Source: a virus. Taken from it: 25,159 nucleotides of DNA. The DNA lies in IMG/VR virus record IMGVR_UViG_3300042691_024302, positions 1-25,159 of that record. One strand, 5' to 3'. Under the pieces are notes generated by a model. The model was not told the DNA's origin. It saw nothing but the letters and a program-made list of their open reading frames with translations, and made no database searches. How positions within the stretch are numbered: the first letter of the stretch is position 1; each line of letters starts with the position of its first letter. Shown here piece by piece: positions 2,152 through 24,768 of this stretch. The translations under genes and the position numbers were made by a program.

Positions 2152-3729
2152 ATGTGTGTTGTATGTGTTTCTACAGTTGCTATAGTATCTTTGCTGTCTC
2201 CCAATACAACACCAGTTGTAAAAAATAATATAAATGATTATGTGATTACTAAAACTGCATGTCCAAAATCAAAAGTAAATAAAATTGAAAATAGTCGTAT
2301 TTGTTTAAAAAATGGTAAAGTTTATAGATGGGCAATTAAAAAACCTACTAAGACAACTCCAACACCTACTCCAACACCTACTCCAACTCCAACATCAAAC
2401 AATAATACAGTTTTAACTAAAAATGATGAGTTTAAAAATAATTTTAAATTTTTTGATTCTCTATGTGAAATTGATAATGATATAGATGAATCATTTTTAA
2501 AATATAAAAACAATGTAAAAAATAATGACTGTCACCCTCCGTATAAATTTGTTTCTCAATTTATTGAGTCACAGCCAACAACAATATTATCTAATGATAA
2601 TTTATTTTTACCCACATCATCATGTAATATTGATTCAGACAAGTGGACTACAAGAAAAAATAAATGGCATCCAAATTATACAATAAGAATGATTCCATAT
2701 CAAACTACAGATTTCCCAACATCATCTAATCCAAAAGCCGACTGGTCTTTTGAAATTAAATATCTTCTAGATACTTTTGATAATATTACAGATGTTCCAT
2801 CTAATTATAAGATATTAGTAGATGAAACTTATTATAAAGTTGATGTAAATTTAAAGGATTATGATCTGAGTGGTAAATATATGCATGGAGATCGTGGTGC
2901 ACAGACTAGAGCAAAACAACTTGCTAATAAAATTATATCTATTGCTGATAGCAGCATTGATTTTGGTTCAGTTGATATGATTTATTTTTTACCTCCAAAA
3001 AATGTTCCTAATTCGGTTTTAGGAAATTTTATTTTACCTGGTTTAATTCAAACTCAAGAAAAAATATTTTATGATGGTATTTATATGGGTTCAAAATGGG
3101 ATGATTTTTCTTCAGAGTATTGGAATTCAAGAAATCCGTTTGGATTAATACATGAAATTATTACGCATGTATCAAATACACTAAGTGATTATACTGGAGA
3201 TCAGTTTCATGATAATAAATTAGGGCACTACGGTGTAGGTAACTGGGGAAATAATGCTGGCGGAATTATGGATTTTTTAGGTTTTGATAAATGGCAAGCA
3301 AAATTAATCGCTGACTCACAAGTTTATTGTATTAATTCAAATAAAGAAAATATTATTTGGTTAAGACCACTAACACACAATACTTTTGATAAAAAGTTAG
3401 CAATTATAAAGTTATCAGAAACAAATGCAATAACTATTCAGTCCATGAGATCAAGTGGGTATAACTATAAATTACCAAAAAAGTCAAATGGTGTTTTGGT
3501 TTCAACTGTTGATACAGATGCAGCATATGATAATTCTGTACATGACGACGGACAAGTTGTTTTATGCCCAAAACGCAATAACAGTTATAATATTCATGGC
3601 GGATGTAAGGAAAAAAATCTTTTTGACGCAACATTACAAGTAAATGAAAGTATTATTTATCAAGGATATGAAATTATTGTTCTTGAATCTGGTGAATTTG
3701 GAGATGTTGTTAAAATTAAAAAAATTTGA
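2152..3729 (+). CDS. Secreted M6-like (immune-inhibitor-A-type) metallopeptidase-like protein with Pro-Thr linker
   Basis: A 525-residue protein. Residues 2-16 are hydrophobic (a short signal peptide or anchor). Residues 35-62 (ACPKS...CLKNGKVYRW) resemble a short Cys/Trp segment common in secreted proteins of aquatic Actinobacteria. A Thr-Pro linker (68-81) follows, then a large domain. Around residue 334 is HEIITH, then SDYTGD, then GIMDFLGFDKWQAKL. The order (zinc-site helix, Asp-rich loop, MG-like turn, W/K helix) and a later SNGVLVSTVDTD stretch match the M6 layout. M6 enzymes normally have HExxH, while this has HExxxH, so activity is uncertain. It could digest host surface proteins, act as an adhesin or be a virion-associated peptidase. 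AGGAT at 2136-2140 is the ribosome site. The coding region is much more AT-rich than the lysis genes. Confidence 0.6.
   Translation: MCVVCVSTVAIVSLLSPNTTPVVKNNINDYVITKTACPKSKVNKIENSRICLKNGKVYRWAIKKPTKTTPTPTPTPTPTPTSNNNTVLTKNDEFKNNFKFFDSLCEIDNDIDESFLKYKNNVKNNDCHPPYKFVSQFIESQPTTILSNDNLFLPTSSCNIDSDKWTTRKNKWHPNYTIRMIPYQTTDFPTSSNPKADWSFEIKYLLDTFDNITDVPSNYKILVDETYYKVDVNLKDYDLSGKYMHGDRGAQTRAKQLANKIISIADSSIDFGSVDMIYFLPPKNVPNSVLGNFILPGLIQTQEKIFYDGIYMGSKWDDFSSEYWNSRNPFGLIHEIITHVSNTLSDYTGDQFHDNKLGHYGVGNWGNNAGGIMDFLGFDKWQAKLIADSQVYCINSNKENIIWLRPLTHNTFDKKLAIIKLSETNAITIQSMRSSGYNYKLPKKSNGVLVSTVDTDAAYDNSVHDDGQVVLCPKRNNSYNIHGGCKEKNLFDATLQVNESIIYQGYEIIVLESGEFGDVVKIKKI
2353..2394 (+). repeat. Thr-Pro dipeptide repeat (linker) in the M6-like protein
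   Basis: Alternating ACA/ACT and CCA/CCT codons encode a (Thr-Pro)n run at residues 68-81. Such runs form stiff, often glycosylated linkers between an anchor and an extracellular domain. The 12-nt unit CCAACACCTACT recurs imperfectly, so slipped-strand length change is possible. Confidence 0.8.
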
Positions 3730-4955: not shown

Positions 4956-5028
4956 ACCTCTGTAACTCAGTGGATAGAGTAGCGGACTTCTAATCCGTTT
5001 GTCGTTGGTTCAAATCCAATCAGAGGTG
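4956..5028 (+). tRNA. tRNA-Arg(TCT)
   Basis: Acceptor ACCTCTG/CAGAGGT, D-arm with loop AGTGGATAGA, anticodon stem GCGGA/TCCGT around CTTCTAA (anticodon TCT, reading AGA/AGG), T-arm GTTGG-TTCAAAT-CCAAT, discriminator G. AGA is the dominant Arg codon of the AT-rich genes here and rare in G+C-rich actinobacteria. No CCA is encoded. Confidence 0.9.
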
Positions 5029-5042
5029 CTACAATTAAATAT

Positions 5043-5115
5043 TGGTCTGTAGTTCAGTTGGTAGAACACTCGACTGTTAATCGAGATGTCGCAGGATCGA
5101 GACCTGCCAGACCAG
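5043..5115 (+). tRNA. tRNA-Asn(GTT)
   Basis: Acceptor TGGTCTG/CAGACCA, anticodon stem CTCGA/TCGAG around CTGTTAA (anticodon GTT), T-arm GCAGG-ATCGAGA-CCTGC (an A replaces the usual first T of the TTC motif), discriminator G. Asn codons are very frequent in the following island. No CCA is encoded. Confidence 0.9.
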
Positions 5116-5118
5116 CGA

Positions 5119-5143: not shown

Positions 5144-6748
5144 GTGTCAGTAGATAAAATAGTAGTTGTAGGTGGAGGATCTGCTGGATGGATGACAGCA
5201 TCTACATTGATAAAAGCCTTTCCTAATAAAAAGATATATGTAATAGAATCTAAAAATGTACCTTTAGTTGGTGTTGGAGAATCAACTTTAGGAGAAATAA
5301 GAAGATGGACAAGGTTTATTGGCTTAAATGAAAAGGATTTTTTTAAACAAACGGACGCATCATATAAATTAAGTATTAAGTTTACTGATTTTTATAAAAA
5401 AGATTCTGGTAGTTTTCATTATCCTTTTGGACAACCAGCAGTAGATAAAAACAGAAATCCATTTCATGATTGGCATATTAAAAAATATATATACCCAGAT
5501 ACTCCAGTTACAGATTTTGTTGAATGTTTATTTCCAGCATCTGCTTTATTTACTCAAAATAAATATTCTCCTAATATTTTAAATAATTTTGATAATTTTG
5601 ATCATACTAATGATGTAGCATATCATTTTGATGCAGTTAAATTTGGAAAATGGTTAAAAGATTTTGTATGTCTTCCTAATGGGGTAAAACATATAGAGTC
5701 AACTGTAATAGATATTCATATCGAAGAGGATTTGGGTATTAAATTTCTTAAATTAGAAAACGGAGAAACTATTACTGCTGATTTATTTATCGATTGCACT
5801 GGCTTTAAAAGTCTTTTACTAGGACAAACTTTAAAAGAACCATTTACTTCATTTGAAAATTTACTTCCAAACAACGGTGCCTGGGCAACAAGAATACCAT
5901 ACAAAAATAAAGAAAAAGAATTAGAGGGATATACAAACTGTACAGCAATAGGAAATGGTTGGTGCTGGAATATACCATTATATTCAAGAATAGGTGCTGG
6001 GTATGTTCATTCAACAAAGTATATTACTAAAGAACAGGCACTTGATGAGTTTAAAGAATATTTAATGTCTAATAAAATGGTTGTTCCTAGAACCAAAGAT
6101 GAGGTTGAAAGTTTGGAATATAGATATATAGATATGCGTGTTGGACTTCACGAAAGAACTTTTGTAAAAAATGTAGTAGCAATAGGACTATCTGCAGGAT
6201 TTATAGAGCCTTTAGAATCTAATGGATTATTTACGGTTCATAAATTTTTATTTAAACTTATAGATATTTTACAAAGAAATGACATAAGCCAATTTGATCG
6301 TGACATGTATAACTCTTCAGCAAAGACTTTATTTGAATCTTTTACTAAATTTGTATCTCTACATTATCTTTTATCTCATAGGGATGATACAGAATACTGG
6401 AAAAATATAAAAAATGGAAATCAAATTAATATTCAAGATGAAGTGTATGATAGATATTATTATAAGTCTGGAGCATTTTATGATTTAGTTCAAAGATATA
6501 TGGATCATGGCAAACATCCATTAGACAGGGCTGGAATAACATACATAGCAACTGGAATGAATTTAAATATGATGAACAACTCAAGGGCAGAAAATGAATA
6601 TTTTACAACAAAAATACCATTAAAACAAATAGCAGATTTCTGTAATGCTGATTGGGAATTAAAAAAACAAAAATGGAAAAATAATGCACAAAATGCTCCA
6701 TCTCTTTATGAATATTTAAAAAATACTTATTTTGACGGACAAGAATAA
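5144..6748 (+). CDS. Flavin-dependent (tryptophan-type) halogenase
   Basis: A 534-residue protein, typical for the family. It has the FAD-binding GGGSAGW (10-16) near the N-terminus, GVGEST (43-48), the catalytic-lysine region DASYKLSIKF (Lys75, equivalent to PrnA Lys79), the signature GWCWNIP (272-278; family GWxWxIP), and EPLESNG (Glu358, equivalent to PrnA Glu346). These enzymes use FADH2, O2 and halide to chlorinate, brominate or iodinate electron-rich substrates; free Trp is only one possibility. Homologs in phages are known (VirX1 of a cyanophage). No flavin reductase is in the window, so reduced flavin would come from the host. A GTG start is chosen because AAGGAGA lies 3 nt before it. 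It sits between two tRNA groups, upstream of the DUF6065-like and oxygenase genes. Confidence 0.9.
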   Translation: MSVDKIVVVGGGSAGWMTASTLIKAFPNKKIYVIESKNVPLVGVGESTLGEIRRWTRFIGLNEKDFFKQTDASYKLSIKFTDFYKKDSGSFHYPFGQPAVDKNRNPFHDWHIKKYIYPDTPVTDFVECLFPASALFTQNKYSPNILNNFDNFDHTNDVAYHFDAVKFGKWLKDFVCLPNGVKHIESTVIDIHIEEDLGIKFLKLENGETITADLFIDCTGFKSLLLGQTLKEPFTSFENLLPNNGAWATRIPYKNKEKELEGYTNCTAIGNGWCWNIPLYSRIGAGYVHSTKYITKEQALDEFKEYLMSNKMVVPRTKDEVESLEYRYIDMRVGLHERTFVKNVVAIGLSAGFIEPLESNGLFTVHKFLFKLIDILQRNDISQFDRDMYNSSAKTLFESFTKFVSLHYLLSHRDDTEYWKNIKNGNQINIQDEVYDRYYYKSGAFYDLVQRYMDHGKHPLDRAGITYIATGMNLNMMNNSRAENEYFTTKIPLKQIADFCNADWELKKQKWKNNAQNAPSLYEYLKNTYFDGQE

Positions 6749-6769: not shown

Positions 6770-6846
6770 GGTCCGTTAGTTCAGTTGGTTAGAACGCTAC
6801 CCTGTCACGGTAGAGGTCGTCGGTTCAAGTCCGATACGGATCGCCA
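6770..6846 (+). tRNA. tRNA-Asp(GTC) with encoded CCA
   Basis: Acceptor GGTCCGT/ACGGATC, anticodon stem CTACC/GGTAG around CTGTCAC (anticodon GTC), T-arm GTCGG-TTCAAGT-CCGAT, discriminator G and an encoded 3' CCA (6844-6846). It is the only one of the seven tRNAs that encodes CCA, which suggests a separate origin. It is followed one base later by the Glu tRNA. Confidence 0.92.
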
Positions 6847-6847
6847 A

Positions 6848-6919
6848 GGCACTATCGTCTATCGGCTAGGACATCGCCCTTTCACGGCGGAAAGACGGGT
6901 TCGATTCCCGTTAGTGCTA
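6848..6919 (+). tRNA. tRNA-Glu(TTC)
   Basis: Acceptor GGCACTA/TAGTGCT (first pair G-U), anticodon loop CTTTCAC on a CGCC/GGCG stem (anticodon TTC, reading GAA/GAG), T-arm ACGGG-TTCGATT-CCCGT, discriminator A. It is transcribed with the Asp tRNA. No CCA is encoded. Confidence 0.92.
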
Positions 6920-6925
6920 CAAGTT

Positions 6926-6934
6926 TGCTATAAT
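6926..6934 (+). promoter_or_regulatory. Extended -10 promoter (TGC-TATAAT)
   Basis: TGC (6926-6928) and TATAAT (6929-6934) stand 17 nt upstream of the Thr tRNA. It could drive the Thr tRNA and the following DUF6065-like operon together. No good -35 box is seen. Confidence 0.6.
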
Positions 6935-6951
6935 GGAATAACCAATGGATT

Positions 6952-7023
6952 GCCTCCTTAACTCAGGGGTAGAGTACTCGCCTTGTAAGCGAGATGTCGT
7001 AGGTTCAAATCCTACAGGAGGCT
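6952..7023 (+). tRNA. tRNA-Thr(TGT)
   Basis: Acceptor GCCTCCT/AGGAGGC, anticodon stem CTCGC/GCGAG around CTTGTAA (anticodon TGT, reading ACA), T-arm GTAGG-TTCAAAT-CCTAC, discriminator T. It ends 12 nt before the next ATG, so tRNA processing would free the 5' end of the downstream mRNA. No CCA is encoded. Confidence 0.92.
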
Positions 7024-7035
7024 CAGGAATACAAA

Positions 7036-7704
7036 ATGGAAAAACCAGATATATTACAAAGCAATGATTTTAATTTTAATGTTTGGTATGAGACATACGA
7101 TCCATTATTTTCAGATATTTCAAAAAAATCAAGACTTCCAGAAAAATGGATATCTTATCAATATATAAAAAATAATTATTACAAACAAAGTTTTATAAAA
7201 CCAATTAATAGATATGTTGAAGCACTTTATCCAAAACCAAATCTTATATCTATTAATGATAATACTGTTACATTAAGACAACATAATCATGCAGATTTTT
7301 TTCTTTTAGTAGAAAATAACGGAATATTATATAACTTAGATAGGCCATGGATGAGACAATATTATAATACAAAATATTCTACTGAAATACCAAATGATTG
7401 CTTTAATTATATTTATAAATTTTATACTCCGTGGTATGTCGATTTTGAAGGAAATGTTGAATACAAAAATATCGAAAATTCTCCATTTCATATTTATGAT
7501 ATATCTATAAAGCATAACTCAGTATCTCAGCAACTTAATTATCTAGAACCAAACTTTATTCCTTTTAGTTTTAAAAAAATAGGAGACCACATGGTAGATG
7601 ATGGTTTCGGAAAAATTTTAAGAGGTTCTCCAATGTTTGACATTATATTTAAAGCAGATGATATAATGATTAGTAGAGTCAAGGAGTTTTATGAAAAAAA
7701 TTAA
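7036..7704 (+). CDS. Protein of unknown function, distant relative of the two following DUF6065-like proteins
   Basis: A 222-residue soluble protein, rich in Asn, Tyr, Phe and Ile. I recognise no catalytic motif. Its second half seems to keep landmarks of the next two proteins: FYTPWYVDFEGNVEY corresponds to PYWSVGTPKGYSA, IPFSFKKIGDHMVDDGF to LPFWSFGGFVDTDGF, and LRGSPMFDIIF to KQGTPFIQIIP, in the same order and spacing. It is therefore probably a third, more diverged family member. It overlaps the next gene by 14 nt and starts 12 nt after the Thr tRNA with an AGGA ribosome site. Function is unknown; the company of the halogenase and tailoring enzymes suggests a part in the same process. Confidence 0.65.
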   Translation: MEKPDILQSNDFNFNVWYETYDPLFSDISKKSRLPEKWISYQYIKNNYYKQSFIKPINRYVEALYPKPNLISINDNTVTLRQHNHADFFLLVENNGILYNLDRPWMRQYYNTKYSTEIPNDCFNYIYKFYTPWYVDFEGNVEYKNIENSPFHIYDISIKHNSVSQQLNYLEPNFIPFSFKKIGDHMVDDGFGKILRGSPMFDIIFKADDIMISRVKEFYEKN

Positions 7705-8413
7705 ATTTTATCCATTTAGTGAGTCAATAGTAGATCTTGTTCCAAAACCATCTCCTGCTTCCAGGCATGTGCCAGATTGGTATAAACATCAACCAGGATC
7801 TGTCAATGAAGAACAAGCCTTTTCAAATGGAGCAGGTGGAGCAACAATTAAAAAATGTATGCCAGTATTTGACATGATGACTGCAGGATATATTTTGGGA
7901 TTTCCCTGCGATATTTTTATAGATGCTACCGATCCTAATAAATTAAAATGGTCTACTCCTCAGCCCATGAGGCAGGTAATACCAGATGTAGTATCGCATC
8001 ACTCATTTGAACAATACTCACACTATCCAATTGATACAACACAATACCATAAAGAACTTTTTAGAATATTGCCTTATTGGTCAGTTGGAACTCCTAAAGG
8101 CTATAGCGCTATGTTTATCCATCCAATTCATAGAGATGAACTGCCATTCTGGTCTTTTGGAGGTTTTGTAGATACAGACGGTTTTATATCAGATGGACAT
8201 TTTTCTATGCTTATTAGAAAAAACTTTAAGGGTGTTATAAAACAAGGAACTCCATTTATTCAAATAATTCCAATACAAAGAGAATCTTGGGAAACTGAAT
8301 TAGTTGATCCAAAAGAAGCATCTAAAATATTACAAAAACAAAGAGTAAATGTAAGGGCAAATTTTGTTAATGCATATAAAAATAAATTTAGGAGTAAAAA
8401 AGAATTTAAATGA
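7691..8413 (+). CDS. DUF6065-like protein (copy 1)
   Basis: A 240-residue protein closely related to the next gene. Shared landmarks in order are VPDWY (MLPEWF in the neighbour), TIKKCMPVFDMMTAGY (TKMCMPFLDATTAGY), PYWSVGTPKGYS (WYYETPKGYS), HPIHRDELPFW (HPMNRYDLPFY), FVDTDGF, KNFKGVIKQGTPFIQIIP (RNFRGIIPKGTPIFQIVP) and QRESWE. I take this to be the DUF6065 family by memory of the pattern. It has no signal peptide or membrane segment. Conserved His, Asp, Cys and TPKGY positions would suit a metal- or substrate-binding role, but no reaction is known. A strong AAGGAG precedes the ATG, which overlaps the previous gene by 14 nt. Confidence 0.7.
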   Translation: MKKIKFYPFSESIVDLVPKPSPASRHVPDWYKHQPGSVNEEQAFSNGAGGATIKKCMPVFDMMTAGYILGFPCDIFIDATDPNKLKWSTPQPMRQVIPDVVSHHSFEQYSHYPIDTTQYHKELFRILPYWSVGTPKGYSAMFIHPIHRDELPFWSFGGFVDTDGFISDGHFSMLIRKNFKGVIKQGTPFIQIIPIQRESWETELVDPKEASKILQKQRVNVRANFVNAYKNKFRSKKEFK

Positions 8414-9171
8414 AAGACGATTTACTAAAAATAAAATTTATTCCTGGCTTTATTCCATATAAAAATCATTTAACACCTCCAGAACCAGCAATAAAGATGT
8501 TGCCAGAATGGTTTAGAACTTTGGCACGTCATGATAAATCTAATGACGACAGAACTTTACATCCAGTAAATCACATAGGCGCAGATGGGGCAATGGTTGC
8601 TACAAAAATGTGTATGCCATTTTTAGATGCTACTACAGCAGGATATCATTATTTATTAGAAGACGATTTATATGTAGATTTAGATGAAAATGGAAAACCA
8701 ATACTGTCTTGGAAAGGAGACGTTTTATTAGTTGATGTTAGGCCAACAATAGAATTGCCAGTGCCAGATAATTGTCACCCAATACATTATGGATGGAGAA
8801 TGAATTGGTATTATGAAACTCCTAAAGGATATTCTTGCTTAATTACACACCCAATGAATAGATATGATCTTCCATTTTATGTTCAGTCTGGAATTGTAGA
8901 ATCAGATATTTGGGGATTGCCAGTATTTACTGCATTTTTTTTAAAAAGAAATTTTCGTGGAATTATTCCTAAAGGAACACCAATATTTCAAATAGTACCC
9001 TTTAAAAGAGATAATTGGGAATTAGAAGTTATAGATACTCCAGAAGAGTTGGACAAGCATGAATTGATGGCAGAAAATAGACGATCAAGACTGTATGGTT
9101 ATTATAAACAAACTGCATGGAGAAGAAAAATATTTGGAGTATTCGGAAAGACTGAAAAATATGAAGAATGA
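8410..9171 (+). CDS. DUF6065-like protein (copy 2)
   Basis: A 253-residue paralog of the gene before it, joined by an ATGA overlap. It keeps all landmarks: MLPEWF, KMCMPFLDATTAGY, ETPKGYSCLITHPMNRYDLPFY, RNFRGIIPKGTPIFQIVPFKRDNWE. The N-terminal third differs (an HPVNHIGADGAMVATK insert), so the two may be subunits with different partners rather than redundant copies. The tandem arrangement points to duplication, or to a heteromeric complex. Its 3' end overlaps the following glycosyltransferase by 11 nt, which implies coupled translation. Confidence 0.7.
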   Translation: MKDDLLKIKFIPGFIPYKNHLTPPEPAIKMLPEWFRTLARHDKSNDDRTLHPVNHIGADGAMVATKMCMPFLDATTAGYHYLLEDDLYVDLDENGKPILSWKGDVLLVDVRPTIELPVPDNCHPIHYGWRMNWYYETPKGYSCLITHPMNRYDLPFYVQSGIVESDIWGLPVFTAFFLKRNFRGIIPKGTPIFQIVPFKRDNWELEVIDTPEELDKHELMAENRRSRLYGYYKQTAWRRKIFGVFGKTEKYEE

Positions 9172-10003
9172 TATTGATATTATTATATATTCATATAAAG
9201 GTAAATATGTAAAAGATATTTTACAAAAACTAGATGAATATTCTATGTCTGTAACACTAATAGATCAGCATCCATTAGATAGGAAAAAGATGTTTGATCA
9301 AATGATAAAAAAATATTTACATGTTTTTTGGGATCATCAAAAAAGTCCGTGCAAATATAAAAATAATCAAATTAAAATATCTAACGCTAAATATATAATG
9401 TTATTATCTGATAATGTATTTTTAGAAAAAAATATTATTGATACGTTAATTAATTTTATAGAAACAAATAATTGCATAGTTTCTGGTTTTGGGAAAAATA
9501 AAATAGAAAAAAAAGATTTATTCTCAATAAACCAAAAAAGAGAAAATTCTTTAGATTATACCTTAACAAACTTTATTAATCGTGATTTTATAATTGGGAA
9601 AAATGAACATTTTAAACAGATAGAGTATCCAGAGTTTTTAAAGTATAATGGAGAGGAAGAGTTATTATCTTTACTTTTTTACAATAATAAAATTGATATA
9701 TATTCCGCACCTAATAGTTTTGGCGTTAAGGTTGGTAAAAGAAGCATAGAGGAGATATACTGTCCATTTTCTATTGATCATAAATATAATAAAGTAATAA
9801 AAATATTTAAAGGGGAAATTTATAAAAATTATAACATTTCTAAAGAAATACTTGAAGATTTTAATCGATTCCACAACTTTAATTTTTCAGACCTAAAAGA
9901 ACTTCCATATATTAATGATGATGTTCTTTATGATCAAAATCAACTTGAATTTTTATCCGTAGATGGTAGAAAATTTGTTGAAAAAACAAGGGCCATCCAT
10001 TAA
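9161..10003 (+). CDS. GT-A-type glycosyltransferase-like protein
   Basis: A 280-residue protein. The N-terminus (DIDIIIYSYKGKYVKDILQKL) is a nucleotide-fold beta-alpha unit. It is followed by YLHVFWDHQKSPCKYKNNQIKISNAKYIMLLSDNVFLEKNIIDTLI in one continuous region (about 52-97), which matches the GT-A layout in which an acidic motif at the end of a strand (here SDN, 83-85) binds the metal and nucleotide-sugar. It resembles PF11397/GT60-like enzymes and may be a relative of the clearer transferase at 13571. Only one acidic residue remains in the DxD position, so activity is less certain. Start 9161 is chosen over an upstream in-frame ATG because it gives the usual short overlap with the previous gene and begins at the conserved fold. 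Confidence 0.55.
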   Translation: MKNDIDIIIYSYKGKYVKDILQKLDEYSMSVTLIDQHPLDRKKMFDQMIKKYLHVFWDHQKSPCKYKNNQIKISNAKYIMLLSDNVFLEKNIIDTLINFIETNNCIVSGFGKNKIEKKDLFSINQKRENSLDYTLTNFINRDFIIGKNEHFKQIEYPEFLKYNGEEELLSLLFYNNKIDIYSAPNSFGVKVGKRSIEEIYCPFSIDHKYNKVIKIFKGEIYKNYNISKEILEDFNRFHNFNFSDLKELPYINDDVLYDQNQLEFLSVDGRKFVEKTRAIH

Positions 10004-10028: not shown

Positions 10029-10631
10029 ATGCATAGAATAACTGTAATTGAAAATTTTATAACACCAGAAGATGCCAAAACATTAATAGATCAGCAACTG
10101 GATCCGTCCGCCGTCAGGCTTCCTTATCCAAATTACTATAGTGATAGATATGGTGGAACCTCTTTGCCGTATAATCCCACGGTAATGTCAATTTTAAAAA
10201 AATATGGACATAAATCAAATGAAATGCATAAAGCATTAAATGGTTTTAAAAATCCAATGTATGTTTTTAAGGCTTTTGGATCTCACTGGTTGCCTGGTAC
10301 TAAAGGTGACTTGCATATAGATGCACAGGGTCCAGAACCATGGATTGAGTTTAGTACAATAATGTATTTAAATAATGAATCAGAATACGATGGCGGAGTA
10401 ATATATTTCCCAAACCAAGATTTTCAGTATAAGCCTAAACAATATTCTGCAGTGTTTTTTCCTGGTGCTGGAACAGAATATATTCATGGAATAACAACTG
10501 TTACACGTGGCAATAGATTTACTGCTTTATATATGCATACTAGTTTGCCAGAACATGCAGATCCAGATTTTTATGATGGAGTAAAGCCTACAAGGTGGGA
10601 GGCACAGCACTATGACCTTAGACAACATTGA
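10029..10631 (+). CDS. Prolyl-4-hydroxylase-like 2OG-Fe(II) oxygenase (1 of 5)
   Basis: A 200-residue single-domain protein with the double-stranded beta-helix signature. Iron ligands are His96 and Asp98 (GDLHIDAQG) and His153 (YIHGITTV), with Arg163 (NRFTALYMH) for the 2-oxoglutarate carboxylate. STIMYLNNESEYDGGVIYFP is the typical P4H-like strand pair. All four key residues are present, so it should hydroxylate (or otherwise oxidise) a substrate using O2 and 2OG. P4H-like enzymes often act on proline in proteins, but relatives act on other residues and small molecules. It overlaps the next oxygenase by 20 nt, so the pair are probably made together. Confidence 0.85.
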   Translation: MHRITVIENFITPEDAKTLIDQQLDPSAVRLPYPNYYSDRYGGTSLPYNPTVMSILKKYGHKSNEMHKALNGFKNPMYVFKAFGSHWLPGTKGDLHIDAQGPEPWIEFSTIMYLNNESEYDGGVIYFPNQDFQYKPKQYSAVFFPGAGTEYIHGITTVTRGNRFTALYMHTSLPEHADPDFYDGVKPTRWEAQHYDLRQH

Positions 10632-11289
10632 ATATGATATATTAGATTTGGGTTTAGTATATTATAAAAATATATTAAAAGATTCAGAATCTATTATAGA
10701 AAAAGTTAATCAGATTGATTCAAGGTATATGTCTGGAGAACATGGCAATAATTTTACAGAAATGAAACCATGGCATGCATGGCAAAATGAAAGTGCTGGA
10801 ACATATGAAACTTTTTGTTGGCAAAAATTTTTTCCAAAACCACAAGACATAAAATATAATGATTATTATTATTTGGATCAATTAGATATATCAAAAAAAC
10901 TATACGATGCTCTTGACTTGGCAACTGATCATTATAAAAAAATAATTTATCCATTTGCAGATAAAAATATAAAATCTAGAGAATATAATATACATTTATT
11001 AAAATATACTCCTGGAGGATATCTGCCAGCACACCAAGATCAGGGTGTTAGTAGCAGAGTGTTGTCAAGTGTAATGTATTTAAATAATAATTATGTCGGA
11101 GGAGAGATAGAATTTAGACAATCTAAAATTAAAATAAAACCAGAACCTGGCAGTATAATATTTTTCCCATCAAACTTTTTATATGTTCATGAAGTTTATC
11201 CAATTATAAGTGGAGAAAGATATTCAATGCCACACTGGTACCATAATATACCATTTGGCGAGGCAAGAAATTCTACTGGTGCTGAATAA
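10612..11289 (+). CDS. Prolyl-4-hydroxylase-like 2OG-Fe(II) oxygenase (2 of 5)
   Basis: A 225-residue protein with complete active-site residues: His141 and Asp143 (PAHQDQGV), His193 (YVHEVYPI), Arg203 (ERYSMPHWYH), and VMYLNNNYVGGEIEF between. It is only distantly similar to the oxygenase it overlaps, so the pair probably act on different positions or substrates. About 100 residues at the N-terminus precede the core and may set substrate choice. Its stop overlaps the next ATG by one base. The run oxygenase, oxygenase, SGNH hydrolase, carbamoyltransferase, glycosyltransferase is uninterrupted. Confidence 0.85.
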   Translation: MTLDNIEYDILDLGLVYYKNILKDSESIIEKVNQIDSRYMSGEHGNNFTEMKPWHAWQNESAGTYETFCWQKFFPKPQDIKYNDYYYLDQLDISKKLYDALDLATDHYKKIIYPFADKNIKSREYNIHLLKYTPGGYLPAHQDQGVSSRVLSSVMYLNNNYVGGEIEFRQSKIKIKPEPGSIIFFPSNFLYVHEVYPIISGERYSMPHWYHNIPFGEARNSTGAE

Positions 11290-12044
11290 TGATATCTATT
11301 ACGTCAATTGATAAAAAAGAATTAGACGGTTATTGGCATATTACAAGAACTTTTAATAATAACTATAATGATGAATTACAAAATTTACAAATTAAACAAA
11401 AAAATTATAATAAAAATGGAAAAAGTATTTTATTTTCTGGATGTTCCGTAACAGAAGGTTCTAGTGTTAAAGAAAATAATTTATGGGTTAACTTACTTTC
11501 TAGTGAAATAAATAAAAAAATTCCAATAATGAATTCTATAAATATTGCAAAACATGGTAATAGTATATTTGACTCAATTGTAAGTATTTTTTCTTATATA
11601 AAAAATAATAATAAGCCAGACTTTATATTTTTAAATTTACCAAATATTGAAAGAAACTATTTATATTTAGAGGAAAATAAATATGCAACTATTTCGTTTT
11701 CTACAAAAAATAAAAATTCTTTAGACTTATATGCAAAATCATCAATGATACATATACTAAATTATTATTATATGCTAGAAGAATATTGTAGAAAAAGTAA
11801 TATACAATTATTTTCATTTACATGGGATCATGGAATATGGGATCTTAGTACTGCATCTCAATTTAAAGGTTTTAATTTTAATACCTTTCATACTTACAAA
11901 TGGGAAGAACTAACAAATTATATTTATGAATATAAAAGTAGTAAAAATGATCAGTATTATTTAATAGCGGAAGATGGTTATCATCAAGGCAATGCCTACC
12001 ATCATTTTTGGTCTGATTGGATACTAAAGGAAATCTTTAAATGA
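11289..12044 (+). CDS. SGNH/GDSL-type hydrolase (esterase or acyltransferase-like)
   Basis: A 251-residue protein. The block I motif is ILFSGCSVTEGSSV at about 47-60, with Ser nucleophile in GCSVTEG. Block II fits INIAKHGNS with its Gly, and block III is FLNLPN with its Asn. The C-terminal catalytic pair is EDGYHQGNAYH (DxxH), close to the end as expected. SGNH enzymes remove or move acyl groups on sugars, lipids or antibiotics, here probably on the product of neighbouring tailoring genes. No signal peptide is present, so it acts in the cytoplasm. It is translationally coupled to both neighbours. Confidence 0.7.
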   Translation: MISITSIDKKELDGYWHITRTFNNNYNDELQNLQIKQKNYNKNGKSILFSGCSVTEGSSVKENNLWVNLLSSEINKKIPIMNSINIAKHGNSIFDSIVSIFSYIKNNNKPDFIFLNLPNIERNYLYLEENKYATISFSTKNKNSLDLYAKSSMIHILNYYYMLEEYCRKSNIQLFSFTWDHGIWDLSTASQFKGFNFNTFHTYKWEELTNYIYEYKSSKNDQYYLIAEDGYHQGNAYHHFWSDWILKEIFK

Positions 12045-12125: not shown

Positions 12126-13571
12126 ATGAAAATTTTAGGAATTAATGAAACTACACATGATGCTTCTATAACACTCATAGAAGATGGAAATATATTATTT
12201 GCTGCTCACGCAGAAAGATTCAGCAAGCAAAAAAATGATTGGTTTACAAATGACGATATTATTAATGAGGCATTGTCTTACGGAAAACCAGATCAACTAG
12301 CCTACTATGAAAATAGATGGCTAAAAAAACTACGCATAATTACTCGTGGTGGTTTTGGCGGAGACAAACCTTATTATCTTGCTAGACCAGATTTAAAATG
12401 GATTCCAAGAGAATCGTTTAGCCATCATCATTCACATGCAGCAGCAGGCTACTATACATCTAAATTTGACAATGCGGTAATTGTAGTATTAGACGCAATT
12501 GGAGAATTTAACACATCCACAGTATGGGTGGGAGAAGGCAGTAATTTAAAGAAAGTATTCACAAAAAATTATCCATTTAGTTTCGGATTATTTTATTCCG
12601 CATTTACTCAATTAGTTGGATTAAAACCAAATGAGGAGGAGTATATTTTTATGGGTATGGCAGCATATGGAGATTGGACTAGATATTATCTAAAAATAAA
12701 GGAATATTTTCCTGATATTCATACTCAAAAATATAATTTTCATAAAGGTATTTTTGACTGGGATGAAGTAATAGATGATCAGGCTAAATTTGATATTGCT
12801 GCTGCTGTTCAAAAAATATATGAAGACCGATTAGTTAATTTTATGTCCATGTCACAAAAACTTACTGGAAAACGTAATCTTGTTTTTATGGGTGGATGTG
12901 CATTAAATTGTGCAGCAAATACAATGCTTTGGAAGATGTTTGATGATGTCTGGATTATGCCCAACCCAGGGGATGCTGGATCGTCGCTTGGAGCGGCTGC
13001 AGCAGCCTATGGAAGCCATATAAATTGGCAGCATCCGTATCTTGGTCATGACCTTGGCGGGGAATACCCAGTAGGACCTATAATTACAGAACTAATAAGA
13101 AATAAAATTGCTGCGGTAGCAACAGGAAGGGCTGAATACGGTCCAAGAGCATTAGGAAACAGAAGTATTCTTGCAGATCCAAGAGATCCAAATATTAAAG
13201 ATAAAGTTAATTTAATTAAAAAAAGAGAGTTGTTTAGACCTTTTGCTCCAGTAGTAATGGAAGAGCATGCAAGTAAATGGTTTGATATGAATTTTACATC
13301 GCCATATATGCAGTATGCAGTCAAATGTTTACAACCAGATAAAATTCCATCTGTTGTACATAAAGATGGTACATCAAGAGTTCAAACTGTAAATAAAAAA
13401 CAGCATCCTGGGCTATATGATGTATTATCAAATTGGTACGCCATGACAGGGGTTCCAGTATTATTAAATACAAGTTTAAATATAAAAGGACAACCACTGT
13501 TAAACGATGAAAATGATATACTTGACTGGGAAAAAGAATATTCTTCTTTAATTATAAGGGGTAAAAATTAA
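12126..13571 (+). CDS. NodU/TobZ-type O-carbamoyltransferase
   Basis: A 481-residue protein with both domains of the family. The N-terminal ASKHA-like domain starts KILGINETTHDASITLIEDG (His11-Asp12) and has the metal/adenylate site SHHHSHAAAGYY (His100-102, His104). Then FMGMAAYGD, FMGGCALNCAANTML and PNPGDAGSSLGAA follow. The C-terminal domain has EYGPRALGNRSILADPR (338-353) and GVPVLLNTSLN. Family enzymes make carbamoyl-adenylate from carbamoyl phosphate and ATP, then transfer carbamoyl to a hydroxyl on a sugar or antibiotic. Slightly short at the C-terminus relative to NodU, but motifs are intact. Phage homologs have been linked to carbamoylated hydroxymethyl-cytosine, so DNA is an alternative target. 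AGGAG lies 6 nt before the ATG. Confidence 0.9.
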   Translation: MKILGINETTHDASITLIEDGNILFAAHAERFSKQKNDWFTNDDIINEALSYGKPDQLAYYENRWLKKLRIITRGGFGGDKPYYLARPDLKWIPRESFSHHHSHAAAGYYTSKFDNAVIVVLDAIGEFNTSTVWVGEGSNLKKVFTKNYPFSFGLFYSAFTQLVGLKPNEEEYIFMGMAAYGDWTRYYLKIKEYFPDIHTQKYNFHKGIFDWDEVIDDQAKFDIAAAVQKIYEDRLVNFMSMSQKLTGKRNLVFMGGCALNCAANTMLWKMFDDVWIMPNPGDAGSSLGAAAAAYGSHINWQHPYLGHDLGGEYPVGPIITELIRNKIAAVATGRAEYGPRALGNRSILADPRDPNIKDKVNLIKKRELFRPFAPVVMEEHASKWFDMNFTSPYMQYAVKCLQPDKIPSVVHKDGTSRVQTVNKKQHPGLYDVLSNWYAMTGVPVLLNTSLNIKGQPLLNDENDILDWEKEYSSLIIRGKN

Positions 13572-14566
13572 TGGATAAAATATTTGTTTCAATAGCAGCA
13601 TGGGAAGACTCTCATTTAATAGATGCAATGAGAAAATTTATAAATACTTCTGATCACCCAAACAGTATAGTTTTTGGACTAGGATTAAATTATGAAGTAG
13701 AACCAGATTTTTCTGAATTTAAAAATAATAACATTAAAATAGTTAGAGATAAAGAAATAGGCGACGGGTTCCCAGGAATTATAGGAATAAGAGAAGCAAT
13801 AAGAAAATTAATAACAGATGAAAAATATTTTATGGGAGTAGACGCACATGTTGATTTAGAAAAAGGATGGGACACAAAATTAAAAAATGATATTGATGAA
13901 TTAACTCAGAATAATGAAAAAATTATAATTTCTAGACAGGCAACTGCAGCCATTTTTGGTAAAAAAAATTACGCAACAGCCTGGAGTTTAAGAGGAGATA
14001 TTATAGAATTTGGTCTTGATGGATATGTTATTGAAGTAGATGAAACATATTTAAAAGAAAAAATGGTTAATAATAAATATTTTAAAAATTATTATGTATC
14101 TTGTAATTTTATTTTTGCTAAAACAAAAGATATAAAAAATATTAATTTCCCTTCTTATCATAAATTTCCATTCGAGGAGCCAGAGCAAAGTCTTGCAATT
14201 TATTGTCATGGCTATGATGTTGTAAGCCCTATAGCAGAAGAAATTTGTCATTATGCTGGAAATGATATTAAATATATGTTTGATCCTGATAAAGGATACA
14301 ACCCAAAGTTTTGGAAACTTTCTGGAAATGATCCAACAATAAAAAATAATTGGAAAAAGATATGGGTTGAAGATGATGACGAAATGAGATTAGAAGTAAA
14401 AAAATTAATGATATTTGGAGAAAATCAATATTATTGCCTTGATAATAAGCGTACAATCAGAGATTTTTATAAACAAATAGGGCAACTTGACAATTATGAA
14501 AAAATCCTGTATGATGGTTTATCAAAACAATACATGTATGCAAAGGGAGATCACAATGGAATCTAA
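13571..14566 (+). CDS. PF11397/GT60-like glycosyltransferase (polypeptide GlcNAc-transferase type)
   Basis: A 331-residue protein with the GT60 layout: IFVSIAAWEDSHLIDAM at the start, VFGLGLNYE, then GFPGIIGIREAI (the position of the family GPxxAR motif) and FMGVDAHVDLEKGWD (DxH at 91-93, the metal/nucleotide-sugar site). Later, FPFEEPEQSLAIYCHGYDVVSP matches the conserved acceptor-side acidic segment. The best known family member adds GlcNAc to hydroxyproline of the eukaryotic protein Skp1, after a prolyl 4-hydroxylase has acted; bacterial and viral members are mostly unstudied. The gene overlaps the carbamoyltransferase by one base and the next DUF2061 by 11, closing the island. Confidence 0.75.
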   Translation: MDKIFVSIAAWEDSHLIDAMRKFINTSDHPNSIVFGLGLNYEVEPDFSEFKNNNIKIVRDKEIGDGFPGIIGIREAIRKLITDEKYFMGVDAHVDLEKGWDTKLKNDIDELTQNNEKIIISRQATAAIFGKKNYATAWSLRGDIIEFGLDGYVIEVDETYLKEKMVNNKYFKNYYVSCNFIFAKTKDIKNINFPSYHKFPFEEPEQSLAIYCHGYDVVSPIAEEICHYAGNDIKYMFDPDKGYNPKFWKLSGNDPTIKNNWKKIWVEDDDEMRLEVKKLMIFGENQYYCLDNKRTIRDFYKQIGQLDNYEKILYDGLSKQYMYAKGDHNGI

Positions 14567-16007: not shown

Positions 16008-16421
16008 ATGTATGAATACAGAATAAAAAAAATTACTGGAGTAGTAGATGGAGACACCATAGATGTAGATATAGATTTAGGGTTTAATGTTTCGTTCTCT
16101 CAAAGAGTAAGGCTTGCTGGAATTGATACCCCTGAATCTAGAACTTCAGATAAATTTGAAAAAGCACTTGGTCTTGAAGCAAAAGAATATCTTAAATCAA
16201 AACTTAAAGATGCAAAACAAATTATTATTAAAACAGAAAAACCAGATTCATCTGAAAAATATGGACGTATATTGGGATGGCTTTATGTAGATAATAATAC
16301 TGTATCTATTAATGATCAGATGATCGAAGATGGATATGCCTGGGGATATCTTGGAGAAACAAAGATTAAAGACTTTTCCGTACTTGCCAAACAAAGAGAA
16401 ATGTCAAAAAATAAAAAATGA
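16008..16421 (+). CDS. Staphylococcal-nuclease-like (SNase/thermonuclease) protein
   Basis: A 137-residue OB-fold nuclease. VVDGDTIDVDIDLGF carries the calcium-binding Asp16 (equivalent to SNase Asp21), RVRLAGIDTPE carries Arg35, Asp40 and Glu43, and KYGRILGWLYV carries Arg87. All catalytic residues are present. It should cut DNA or RNA with calcium. No signal peptide is seen, so it acts in the infected cell, perhaps in host DNA breakdown or nucleotide recycling. It overlaps the next oxygenase by 4 nt (ATGA). Confidence 0.85.
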   Translation: MYEYRIKKITGVVDGDTIDVDIDLGFNVSFSQRVRLAGIDTPESRTSDKFEKALGLEAKEYLKSKLKDAKQIIIKTEKPDSSEKYGRILGWLYVDNNTVSINDQMIEDGYAWGYLGETKIKDFSVLAKQREMSKNKK

Positions 16422-17095
16422 AAACAATAAATGATTCTTTTAAACCAAATTATAGATTAGTAAAAAACTTTTTATCTGAAGATGATTGTTTATCTATAAT
16501 TAATGATGCAAATAAATCTGGAGAAGACTTATGGCTTATTGATTTTGACTTGCATTATCCAAAACAAGAGGAAGTAACTGCAGATTATTGGACAGCGATA
16601 AAAGATTGGCAAGGAATGTCTTTAAATTTAGATATGCCAAACTGGGAATTGACATATTCTCTTGATAAAAATAAATATACTAACATATTATCGTTAGCCC
16701 AAGAGCAAATTGAAGATCGTTTTAAAGTAAAAGTTTTTAAAGAACAATTTTTGATAAGTAGATGGCGTGAAGGAAGAGATCAGAAGCCTCACATTGATTA
16801 TTTAAAAGATGAAGAGGATAACAATATAAAAGATTTATATAGTGTTGGTATGAATGATGATTTTATTGATCAGTTTAAAGAAAGATTTAAAACAAAACAT
16901 TACTCAACAATCATTTATTTAAATGATAACTTCGATGGTGGTGAGTTATATTTTCCGCAATACAATAATTTAACACTTAAGCCAGAAACTGGTATGATGA
17001 TTTGTTTTAAGGGAGATACCCACCACTTGCACGGAGTAAAAGAAATTATAAGAAACATAAGGTACACAATATCTATTTTTTGGACGGAGATATAA
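16418..17095 (+). CDS. Prolyl-4-hydroxylase-like 2OG-Fe(II) oxygenase (3 of 5)
   Basis: A 225-residue protein: KPHIDYL (His125, Asp127), THHLHGVKEI (His205), NIRYTISIFW (Arg215), with STIIYLNDNFDGGELYFP between. A longer insert (about 130-160) separates the HxD from the strand pair compared with the other copies. Active-site residues are complete. It lies outside the halogenase island, next to the nuclease, so it may have a different substrate. It is translationally coupled to the nuclease gene. Confidence 0.85.
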   Translation: MKTINDSFKPNYRLVKNFLSEDDCLSIINDANKSGEDLWLIDFDLHYPKQEEVTADYWTAIKDWQGMSLNLDMPNWELTYSLDKNKYTNILSLAQEQIEDRFKVKVFKEQFLISRWREGRDQKPHIDYLKDEEDNNIKDLYSVGMNDDFIDQFKERFKTKHYSTIIYLNDNFDGGELYFPQYNNLTLKPETGMMICFKGDTHHLHGVKEIIRNIRYTISIFWTEI

Positions 17096-18195: not shown

Positions 18196-18429
18196 ATGAA
18201 TATTACAACACTAGAACAAATGGAGTCTATAGTATCATCTAATAAAAATCTTTTTTGGGATGGATGGGATGTAGTTAATTACACTAGATCAGAAAAGGCA
18301 CGAACGTCAAAATATGGTAAATTTATTAACGGTAACTGGTATTTAACAAAAGTTTTTAAGTTAGAGAAAAGTGGTTGGAATATACCAGACAGGATAATAG
18401 GAAATGCACAAACAAAAATGGAAGGATAG
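18196..18429 (+). CDS. Small protein of unknown function
   Basis: A 77-residue soluble protein rich in Trp, Asn and Lys, with DGWDVVNYTRSEKARTSKYG and a GNWYLTKVFKLEKSGW segment. It follows a strong Shine-Dalgarno (AAAGGAG) and overlaps the WhiB gene by 26 nt. The overlap suggests it is made together with WhiB. No family is recognised. Confidence 0.6.
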   Translation: MNITTLEQMESIVSSNKNLFWDGWDVVNYTRSEKARTSKYGKFINGNWYLTKVFKLEKSGWNIPDRIIGNAQTKMEG

Positions 18430-18697
18430 TGCCTCATGTTTAGATTATGATACAAATTTATTTTTTGATAAATATGAAGAGGACGAGAGTTTAAGATCGG
18501 CAATCGATACTCTTTGTCTCTCTTGTCCAGTAATAAAGACTTGCTTTTCTGTTGGAGTTTCTAGTAAAGAATGGGGCGTTTGGGGTGGAGTATATTTAGA
18601 AAGTGGTAATATTTCTAAAGAATTTAATTTACATAAAAGTAAAAGTAATTGGAATAATGCATGGATAAAGTTAACTAATGAGGAACAAACAGAATAA
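18404..18697 (+). CDS. whiB: WhiB-family Fe-S transcription regulator
   Basis: A 97-residue protein with the full WhiB signature: Trp6-Lys-Asp-Ser-Ala-Ser-Cys12, DTNLFF, then Cys38-LS-Cys41-PVIKT-Cys47 (CxxCx5C), and the turn GVWGG (58-62). The four cysteines hold a [4Fe-4S] cluster, and WhiB proteins act through the major sigma factor of Actinobacteria. Phage copies such as WhiB of mycobacteriophage TM4 reduce host WhiB action. The basic DNA-contacting end after GVWGG (KSKSNWNNAWIK) is weaker than in host proteins, so it could act by competing for sigma rather than by binding DNA. Its presence is the strongest pointer to an actinobacterial host. Confidence 0.9.
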   Translation: MHKQKWKDSASCLDYDTNLFFDKYEEDESLRSAIDTLCLSCPVIKTCFSVGVSSKEWGVWGGVYLESGNISKEFNLHKSKSNWNNAWIKLTNEEQTE

Positions 18698-21871: not shown

Positions 21872-22371
21872 TGCAAACATTTCTACCACAGTCAGATTAT
21901 TACTTGTCTGCCCGTACATTAGATAATAAAAGACTAAACAAACAAATCTTAGAAGGCTATCAAATATTAAATGTTTTGTCTGGTAAATCTAAGACTGGTG
22001 GCTGGCGTAATCACCCTGCAGTATTAATGTGGAAAGGCTATGAGCATGGCCTATGGCGTTATATTCAAGCAATGATTCATGAGGCTAAATATCGTGGTAT
22101 TAAGACACAAAATAATGAAGCAAATCTTAATAAACTTAAAGATTTATGCTGGGAAGACTGGGGATACGACATTCCAGAATATTTTAAAGACGAAAAAAAG
22201 TTAGTAAGAATTGTAACTACTCATCGTGCTAATCTATTTAAAAAAGATCCTATATATTATGCTCCATTCCAATATGCCATAACTAGTTTAAACAATGTTC
22301 CCTGCTGTCCTGATCGCAAAGAGCCATGTAAATATTACTGGCCAACACATGAAGGAAAAATTTATGTATAA
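21871..22371 (+). CDS. Pyr_excise/MSMEG_6728-family protein (pyrimidine-dimer-glycosylase-like fold)
   Basis: A 166-residue protein starting MQTFLPQSDYYLSARTLDNKRLNKQILEGYQIL, followed by GWRNHPAVLMWKGYEHGLWRYIQAMI. This is the pattern of PF03013, which includes T4 endonuclease V (DenV) and actinobacterial MSMEG_6728. DenV cuts at pyrimidine dimers using its N-terminal Thr; here Gln2-Thr3 follow Met, so the same N-terminal chemistry is not assured. The CCPDRKEPCKYYWP end adds three cysteines. A DNA-repair role is likely but not proven. It overlaps the following oxygenase by 8 nt. Confidence 0.75.
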   Translation: MQTFLPQSDYYLSARTLDNKRLNKQILEGYQILNVLSGKSKTGGWRNHPAVLMWKGYEHGLWRYIQAMIHEAKYRGIKTQNNEANLNKLKDLCWEDWGYDIPEYFKDEKKLVRIVTTHRANLFKKDPIYYAPFQYAITSLNNVPCCPDRKEPCKYYWPTHEGKIYV

Positions 22372-22930
22372 CTCATCGCAAATAGATAAAATAGGACATT
22401 CTTTAGATAATATCATAGAAATACAAGATGTAATAAATAAAAAAGAACATGAAAAACTTTTATCTGATTGTAAAAATTTAAAATTTACTGGAGGAAGCAA
22501 TGATCCAGATAATTTTTGGTTTAATAGAATTGCAGATAATAGTGAAATTGATGAAGAAACAACAGAAATTTTAAAAAAAATTTTTTTAATTGCTAAAAAA
22601 TCAATAGAATCAAAATATGACATTAAAATTGTAAATAAAAAAAATTCATATAATATTACAGTATGGAGACCTGCAATGTCAATGCATGCACATTACGATG
22701 ATGCAGACTATAAAGATTATAATTTTGCGGCATTATTTTATATAAATGATAATTATCATGGAGGAGAGATAAATTTTATTAATTTAAATAAAATTATTAA
22801 ACCTAAAGCAAATTCTCTTTTAATATTTCCTGGGCATGAAACATATACTCATGAAGTAAAAACAATAATAAATGGGCACAGGTATACATCAAGTCTTTGG
22901 TTTTCATTTAGTCAGGAAAATAATGATTGA
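22364..22930 (+). CDS. Prolyl-4-hydroxylase-like 2OG-Fe(II) oxygenase (4 of 5)
   Basis: A 188-residue protein: MHAHYDDAD (His110, Asp112), ALFYINDNYHGGEINF, YTHEVKTI (His163), HRYTSSLWF (Arg173). Active-site residues are complete. Start 22364 is chosen because AAGGA stands about 7 nt upstream; an in-frame ATG at 22343 would add seven residues inside the previous gene. It is coupled to the repair-like gene before it and to the membrane protein after it. Confidence 0.85.
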   Translation: MYNSSQIDKIGHSLDNIIEIQDVINKKEHEKLLSDCKNLKFTGGSNDPDNFWFNRIADNSEIDEETTEILKKIFLIAKKSIESKYDIKIVNKKNSYNITVWRPAMSMHAHYDDADYKDYNFAALFYINDNYHGGEINFINLNKIIKPKANSLLIFPGHETYTHEVKTIINGHRYTSSLWFSFSQENND

Positions 22931-23996: not shown

Positions 23997-24023
23997 GGGG
24001 GCCTTTCGGCCCCCTTATTTTTT
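23997..24023 (+). terminator. Strong rho-independent terminator between convergent genes
   Basis: GGGGGCC (23997-24003), loop TTTC, GGCCCCC (24008-24014), then TTATTTTTT. The seven-pair G/C stem followed by a T run is a classic terminator. It ends the long + strand transcript. On the - strand the same stem has no good T run after it, so it mostly acts rightward, but it may also slow transcripts of the convergent oxygenase. Confidence 0.9.
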
Positions 24024-24723
24024 ATCCTTCTAACTCTCTAATATATTTTAAGTTTGCTTTATATGGATATGGAATCTTAGAAAGTCGCTCTTTTCTTTCT
24101 TCTTCTGTTATGTTGCAGAAAAATGCAACTATTGTATATCTAGGATTACCAGAACCTATATCGTGTATCTTGTGTTCATAAATATAAGAAGATGGGAAAA
24201 TAAATAATTGATTTGCTTTTGGTTTTAATTTTACACCAAAATGTATAAACTCTAACTCTCCGCCTTCATAATCGTCATTAGGATAATATACAATAGACAC
24301 GGTTCTTGGAGTTCCAAAAGAATCATCTGGGTGCATTCCAAAATAGTCTCCTTCTTTATACTTGCTTATTCTCCAATATTCCCTACTTTTTGGATCAAGA
24401 TCATAGTGCCATAGATAGGAATCTATAACGTCTTCTAAGGCATTGCAAATTTCATTATCTTTTTCTTCTAAGGTTTTAGTTACCCATGTACTTACGCCTC
24501 TTTTTCCTACTGCGGGATCAATTTCGTTTCCATCTGCATCATACAGGTAATCTTCTCTAACAAAACTACCTTCATCATCTAACTTTTTAACAAAATTAAA
24601 ACCGTTATCCCAAACATTTTCATAAACGTGAATGCCAGGCGCAGGGGCAAAATATTTATAAGATTGACCCTTTCTACTTGTTGTTACACTAGATTTTCTA
24701 TCTTCTAGTTTATTGTTATCCAT
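24022..24723 (-). CDS. Prolyl-4-hydroxylase-like 2OG-Fe(II) oxygenase (5 of 5), on the - strand
   Basis: A 233-residue protein: FGMHPDDS (His131, Asp133), VSIVYYPNDDYEGGELEF, YEHKIHDI (His184), PRYTIVAFF (Arg195). All active-site residues are present. About 110 N-terminal residues (with YFAPAPGIHVYENVW and a Lys/Glu-rich part) precede the core. Start 24723 is chosen because AAGGAG stands 5 nt before it; an in-frame ATG at 24747 lies upstream of that ribosome site. It is the only - strand gene seen, diverges from Hsp20 and converges on the terminator, so it is controlled separately, perhaps early or in response to stress. Confidence 0.85.
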   Translation of the reverse strand: MDNNKLEDRKSSVTTSRKGQSYKYFAPAPGIHVYENVWDNGFNFVKKLDDEGSFVREDYLYDADGNEIDPAVGKRGVSTWVTKTLEEKDNEICNALEDVIDSYLWHYDLDPKSREYWRISKYKEGDYFGMHPDDSFGTPRTVSIVYYPNDDYEGGELEFIHFGVKLKPKANQLFIFPSSYIYEHKIHDIGSGNPRYTIVAFFCNITEEERKERLSKIPYPYKANLKYIRELEG

Positions 24724-24739
24724 ATTTTCTCCTTCGGAC

Positions 24740-24768
24740 TTTACCATTATACCATGTTATGCTATAAT
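24740..24768 (+). promoter_or_regulatory. Promoter for Hsp20: TTTACC-17-TATAAT with TGC extension
   Basis: TTTACC (24740-24745), 17 nt, TATAAT (24763-24768), with TGC (24760-24762) directly before the -10. Transcription should begin at about 24775, at the base of a hairpin in the leader. It overlaps the divergent oxygenase promoter. Confidence 0.65.
24746..24754 (-). promoter_or_regulatory. Extended -10 promoter (TGG-TATAAT) for the - strand oxygenase
   Basis: Read on the - strand, TGG (24754-24752) precedes TATAAT (24751-24746); the oxygenase start is at 24723 with its ribosome site between. It stands close to the divergent Hsp20 promoter, so the two -10 regions (9 nt apart) would compete for polymerase. 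Confidence 0.65.

Follow-up and report, generated by a model that had tools for sequence, protein, structure and literature searches.

The window analysed here, the whole 25,159 nucleotides of the viral record IMGVR_UViG_3300042691_024302, carries on its plus strand three consecutive genes, A (7036-7704, 222 aa), B (7691-8413, 240 aa) and C (8410-9171, 253 aa), whose products appear to be diverged members of a DUF6065/phrog_7084 superfamily that would be joined in a heteromer, probably a dUTPase-like trimer of three different subunits. B would supply the conserved site of the family, with C and A as altered partners, and the complex would work with a glycosyltransferase, two 2OG-Fe(II) oxygenases and a NodU-like carbamoyltransferase encoded directly downstream. 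Jointly, these proteins would add hydroxyl, sugar and carbamoyl groups to a protein of the phage, most probably a tail or surface protein that contains repeats. To this combined proposal, in which the complex, its stoichiometry, its substrate and its chemistry are all inferred, we give slightly less than an even chance; several of its parts stand on firmer ground and are taken up below.

B and C are paralogs. Their BLASTP alignment (102 bits, E 4e-31, 29% identity over 249 columns) contains, in order, the landmarks that the first-pass annotation had described for the two proteins, and both are matched over their full length by phrog_7084, a family that has no assigned function (E 1.9e-44 for B, the canonical member, and 2.8e-29 for C). 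A, which opens the set, is not matched by phrog_7084 at E 0.1 and has no BLASTP match to B; to C it aligns in a single segment of the second half (E 9e-4). Profile-profile comparison placed A in order on the joint alignment of B and C (E 0.0018, 125 columns), and with deeper alignments it matched the whole B family at E 1.2e-4 and a probability of 55%, whereas five families from this region with no relation to them scored no better than E 0.3. The faint second-half resemblance noted earlier in A is thus real, and A groups with the B family, closer to C (E 1.2e-3) than to B (E 0.038). The second halves of the A and B models also show strands and helices in identical order. Since the profile match is accompanied by a shared model fold, with both models matching dUTPases, we regard A as a true but distant relative whose sequence signal is weak, and the three proteins as one superfamily to which A is assigned mainly by its predicted fold.

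The name DUF6065, proposed at first sight for the family, applies at the level of the superfamily and does not extend to the window proteins under the curated Pfam rule. PF19541 (DUF6065) matched nothing across the whole record at E 0.001; in the window it gave 12 bits for C (E 0.15), against a curated cut-off of 26.6 bits, and nothing for A or B. The intermediates behave differently: the first of the bacterial relatives retrieved with the profile of B and C scores 39.4 bits, PF19541 is matched at E 0.1 or better by 16 of 17 bacterial relatives and by 20 of the 33 members of the viral alignment (A1), and an HMM built from the phage B family matches twelve true DUF6065 proteins (E 1e-8 to 1e-19). 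The window proteins fall below the cut-off but these intermediates match, and therefore the group is, as judged by sequence, DUF6065-related rather than DUF6065 proper. Our search of the literature on DUF6065, phrog_7084 and NSSS repeats found nothing relevant. A family of unknown function, with members on hundreds of viral contigs and in numerous bacterial genomes, now gains a predicted fold and a testable partner.

All statements on structure refer to monomers predicted with AlphaFold2 from alignments built in this analysis. The models of B (pLDDT 88.5, pTM 0.84) and A (pLDDT 87.7, pTM 0.85) were compared with solved structures, and the best 50 matches of B were all dUTPases (Z 9.3-10.2), the best of them covering 121 residues at 3.4 A; Foldseek likewise gave a dUTPase as the best match of B (E 1.1e-3). 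For A, ranks 1 to 38 were all dUTPases or dCTP deaminases, with a best Z of 6.1, and unrelated structures followed at Z 3.3 or less. Such middling Z values call for care, yet the match lists are uniform and the sequence evidence is concordant. In profile-profile comparison the bacterial relatives match dUTPases with E 4.5e-4, and other families score no better than 0.25; the whole family matches them only at E 0.047, yet with motifs III and IV in register. The dUTPase profile PF00692 matched none of A, B and C at E 1, and when the profiles of the B family and of the bacterial relatives were run against the sequences of solved structures, nothing useful emerged. Taken together, a dUTPase-type fold is very probable for all three proteins.

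The family members are not ordinary dUTPases. Profile alignment shows that the residues of motifs III and IV are retained (Asp161, Asp163 and Gln191), the Asp of motif I is lost (TAGYIL in the family, AGYDL in dUTPases), and motifs II and V were not found on inspection of the alignment. This bears on the possibility that the three proteins act on nucleotides, standing in for a dUTPase or dCTP deaminase in the DNA metabolism of the phage. Such a role might be thought of from the fold, from the lack of PF00692 in ten large phages with the cassette and in two cyanophages, and from the stand-alone B genes of HF2 (L050) and S-RIM4 (L051), which lie a few kb at most from ribonucleotide reductase. 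The missing Asp of motif I and the missing motifs II and V speak against it, HF2 encodes a separate PF00692 dUTPase, one of the bacterial genomes, which carries two homologs of DUF6065, also has a dUTPase of its own, and the genes nearby encode glycosyltransferases and 2OG oxygenases, or else repeat proteins. We thus consider a role in nucleotide metabolism quite improbable.

The view that three versions kept side by side form a set instead of being redundant is borne out by the distribution of A, which occurs with two B-family partners in all 72 cases not cut by a contig end and never alone. The 74 unique A proteins comprise 64 in the order A-B-C, seven in the order B'-A-C', one in A-B-B-C and two at a contig end; A overlaps the next gene in 72/74 and B overlaps C in 61/65. 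In the tree, the B clade forms one group (branch value 97) and C together with C' another (branch value 99), so that B and C are old, separate groups. In the reordered cassettes C' falls within the C group, and B' comes from another clade, one of stand-alone proteins. This indicates that another lineage took over the B slot and that A and C were retained, as though only the canonical subunit of the triple had been exchanged.

The residues are divided among the three proteins in a matching way. Lys54, Cys56, Asp61, His104, Gln108, Asp161, Asp163, Gln191 and Arg197 are near-universal in stand-alone members and all kept in B, with His104 and Gln108 present in 61/61 B proteins. In all 69 C proteins, by contrast, His104 is replaced by Arg and Gln108 by Asp or Glu, and Asp161 is changed to Glu in 75%; A carries an Arg-Pro where C has one, as seen on inspection of the alignment. 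The same split between B and C residues was found in four loci with B-C pairs and no recognisable A (L086, L092, L095 and L097). Just before B in these pairs lies a third gene that resembles A weakly (best E 0.01; other families 0.04-0.7), which is only suggestive, at the sequence level, of a divergent A.

Trimers with sites between subunits are the rule in dUTPases, and an A:B:C trimer is therefore the natural model. We lean towards a single heteromeric complex of A, B and C, whose physical existence and stoichiometry we infer from co-occurrence, gene overlap and the division of residues, although co-occurrence and overlap are also compatible with a tight operon of separate enzymes. Agreement between trees was considered as proof of a trimer and rejected, because B agrees even better with the glycosyltransferase (r 0.90) than the members of A-B-C do with one another (0.75-0.87, the best being A with C at 0.87). 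If the three proteins were instead separate enzymes, each its own homotrimer carrying out successive or parallel steps on related substrates, the cassette order would suit a pathway; moreover, B-type relatives work alone in many genomes, and homo-oligomers must therefore be possible. Such a pathway does not account for A never occurring alone or with a single partner, nor for a C that lacks residues universal in stand-alone members and an A that is still more divergent, and we judge it fairly unlikely. Should the heteromer be confirmed, it would be a dUTPase-type trimer built from three different gene products, of which we know no described example; a search of the literature did not turn up the phrase "heterotrimeric dUTPase".

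The first-pass annotation had the three genes follow a halogenase and saw in that proximity a testable context. By position they do follow it, with tRNA genes in between: the tryptophan-halogenase-like protein (5144-6748, plus strand; PF04820, E 1.8e-102) is separated from A by genes for tRNA-Asp, tRNA-Glu and tRNA-Thr (6770-7024, plus strand) and preceded by tRNA-Arg and tRNA-Asn (4956-5116), all called with ARAGORN. Flanked by tRNA arrays, the halogenase looks as if it were an exchangeable insert, a neighbour outside the conserved cassette. A survey across the family did not bear out this context. Halogenases showed no enrichment near the family genes as compared with far ORFs, either in loci with A or in loci without it (Fisher p = 1), occurred in three of 73 cassette loci (the window, L045 and L046) and were absent from the 80 bacterial loci examined; the enriched neighbours were 2OG oxygenases, the glycosyltransferase and the carbamoyltransferase. 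That A, B and C would cooperate with the halogenase in making a small molecule that is halogenated or hydroxylated is suggested by adjacency on the map and by L045 and L046, where a halogenase follows the cassette at 2.4-2.5 kb; given the survey and the flanking tRNA genes, this is very unlikely indeed.

The context that is conserved lies downstream. Searches of IMG/VR with A and with B and C, each collecting up to 80 loci, revealed the order A-B-C-glycosyltransferase-2OG oxygenase-2OG oxygenase-(G)-carbamoyltransferase, and after removal of duplicates the cassette with A was present in at least 73 viral loci. The glycosyltransferase cluster, in which the clustering also puts G, was found in 69 of the 73, the oxygenase cluster in 66 and the carbamoyltransferase cluster in 51, counts that are lowered by the many loci ending at contig ends. 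In the window, where the cassette genes all lie on the plus strand, the fourth gene, D (9161-10003), encodes a GT-A-type glycosyltransferase-like protein; its ORF could start at 9095, and the ATG at 9161 agrees better with homologs. E (10029-10631; phrog_61, E 8.4e-13) is a prolyl-4-hydroxylase-like 2OG-Fe(II) oxygenase, and F (10612-11289; PF13640, E 5.2e-16) is a second oxygenase that an iterated profile unites with E in one family. G (11289-12044), present in part of the cassettes, has no Pfam or PHROG match and shows an SGNH-hydrolase-like motif by eye only. The usual last core gene, H (12126-13571), encodes a NodU/Nol-like carbamoyltransferase (PF16861, E 4.9e-53; PF02543, E 3.6e-39) and is followed, in a minority of cassettes, by I (13571-14566; PF11397, E 9.4e-15), a glycosyltransferase of the GlcNAc family with which D converges in iterated profiles. 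In loci without A, 2OG oxygenases made up 30 of 404 near ORFs and 3 of 344 far ORFs (Fisher p 6.7e-6), although the 30 come from 11 of 57 loci and are thus not independent.

Other features of these genomes were recorded alongside the cassette. The window contains three more 2OG-Fe(II) oxygenases (16418-17095, 22295-22930, 24022-24747 (-)), making five in 25 kb, and a 525-aa protein (2152-3729) with a (TP)n linker and an HEIITH motif, relatives of which occur in about 10 cassette loci. In 33 of the 73 cassette loci a secreted subtilase-like protein is encoded some 1.6 kb before A (L001:4144-4917, L162:7735-8772, 32 relatives); its Asp, HGT and TtS pattern was seen by eye, and the L162 copy has no Pfam match at E 0.01. 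The window also carries a gene for a WhiB transcription factor (18404-18697; 44.9 bits, cut-off 23.6); WhiB is regarded as an actinophage indicator (PMC10202952), and the host is therefore probably an aquatic actinobacterium.

Relatives outside the cassette may point to a class of substrate. In bacteria they are single genes, in Rhizobiales and others; the loci we collected (L200-L275) come from Rhizobiales, Devosia, Hydrogenophaga and other hosts. We examined 80 bacterial loci, with genes called by simple ORF and GC3 rules, and most of them encode, next to the family gene, a small protein that has a signal peptide and repeats of (NSSS)n (for example L205:10718-11077); the count of 68 is an upper bound, as the pattern also caught a few other serine-rich tracts. 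In ten of ten whole bacterial genomes, (NSSS)n is confined to a single site no more than about 1 kb from the DUF6065-like gene, and a control with the pattern reversed gave no occurrence in any of them. Genes for an ECF sigma factor, an anti-sigma factor and an S8 subtilase with poly-Asp lie nearby. This pairing of one DUF6065-like gene with one exported (NSSS)n protein per genome is open to direct testing in culturable Rhizobium strains and could reveal the role of the family.

In phages, stand-alone B-family genes are also seen in haloarchaeal viruses and cyanophages, near ribonucleotide reductase genes. An aromatic tandem-repeat neighbour (PFGFT, SFVPY, FGA, PFFP or HYAGF) was found in 17 of 103 non-redundant loci, twelve of them without a recognised A and five with B'-A-C' or a variant A-B-C. 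Such proteins account for 17 of 677 ORFs near B and none of 753 far ORFs (p 2.7e-6), for a class that was defined after inspection; when every type of tandem repeat is counted, there is no enrichment near B (p 0.39). The aromatic-repeat proteins usually carry fn3 domains and a C-terminal Hint-like part, as in the tail-type proteins with fn3 or PASTA domains, aromatic repeats and a Hint/intein-like C terminus encoded directly upstream of B-family genes (L013:275-1432, L018:5763-7094, L084:8814-9965, L078:8520-9974, L095:5203-6135 and others). Repeat-protein loci in phages often have extra 2OG oxygenases, and in L085 and L094 Pro-rich PFFP repeats occur together with many of them, which fits proline hydroxylation. 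We also noted that L085, L094 and L096 combine several clustered 2OG oxygenases, two or three B-family genes and Pro/Phe-rich PFFP proteins. No tandem-repeat protein was found consistently beside the A-B-C cassettes, and the sole such tract seen in the window is the TPTP of the protein at 2152-3729. Since the relatives adjoin tandem-repeat proteins, the DUF6065-related family probably acts on repeat proteins.

The same neighbourhoods could be read structurally. Trimeric beta-clip folds can form virion parts, and in several phages B starts 9-38 bp past an aromatic-repeat fn3 tail-protein gene, so A, B and C might be neither enzymes nor partners of enzymes and instead a cap or decoration on the tail or head. 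The bacterial relatives, however, adjoin genes for an exported repeat protein, a sigma factor and a subtilase with no evident phage context, and the conserved set of Cys, His, Asp, Lys, Gln and Arg suggests a site; a structural role is accordingly improbable in our estimation.

We return to modification of a phage protein as the preferred reading. Whether the target is a protein rather than a nucleotide or a free sugar is, in our judgement, evenly balanced. The A-B-C complex might bind the repeat substrate or might catalyse a step that uses an activated nucleotide. As the Asp of motif III and the Gln of motif IV are still present, a dUTPase-like attack in which a protein hydroxyl replaces water is conceivable. 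A more far-reaching hypothesis unites bacteria and phages in one repeat-protein modification system on a dUTPase-fold scaffold, which in bacteria would be homotrimeric; in aquatic phages it would be an A:B:C heterotrimer, and obligately so. It would act on surface or tail proteins with tandem repeats such as (NSSS)n and (PFGFT)n, possibly through such an attack by a protein hydroxyl on an activated nucleotide, and together with 2OG hydroxylases, glycosyltransferases and a carbamoyltransferase. In this full form the hypothesis is speculative and rather unlikely.

Among known systems, phrog_7084 is matched by B and C over the whole length of these proteins and not by A, and PF19541 includes the bacterial relatives above its cut-off and leaves the window proteins below it. 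The last core gene of the cassette is of the same kind as the phrog_1601 "Nol-like carbamoyltransferase" genes of cyanophages and pelagiphages; A had no tblastn match in the records of isolate phages, and the A-B-C cassette is therefore not known from these phages. A further comparison is with the trimeric dUTPases and dCTP deaminases of the beta-clip type, whose fold is predicted for A and B alike. The dUTPase motifs IDxDY (III) and GDRIAQ (IV) correspond to VDTD and GTPxxQ of the family, which differs from dUTPases in an extra N-terminal segment and in its conserved Lys-x-Cys...Asp and His...Gln. A dUTPase, finally, is the product of one gene, whereas here three unlike genes stand in its place.
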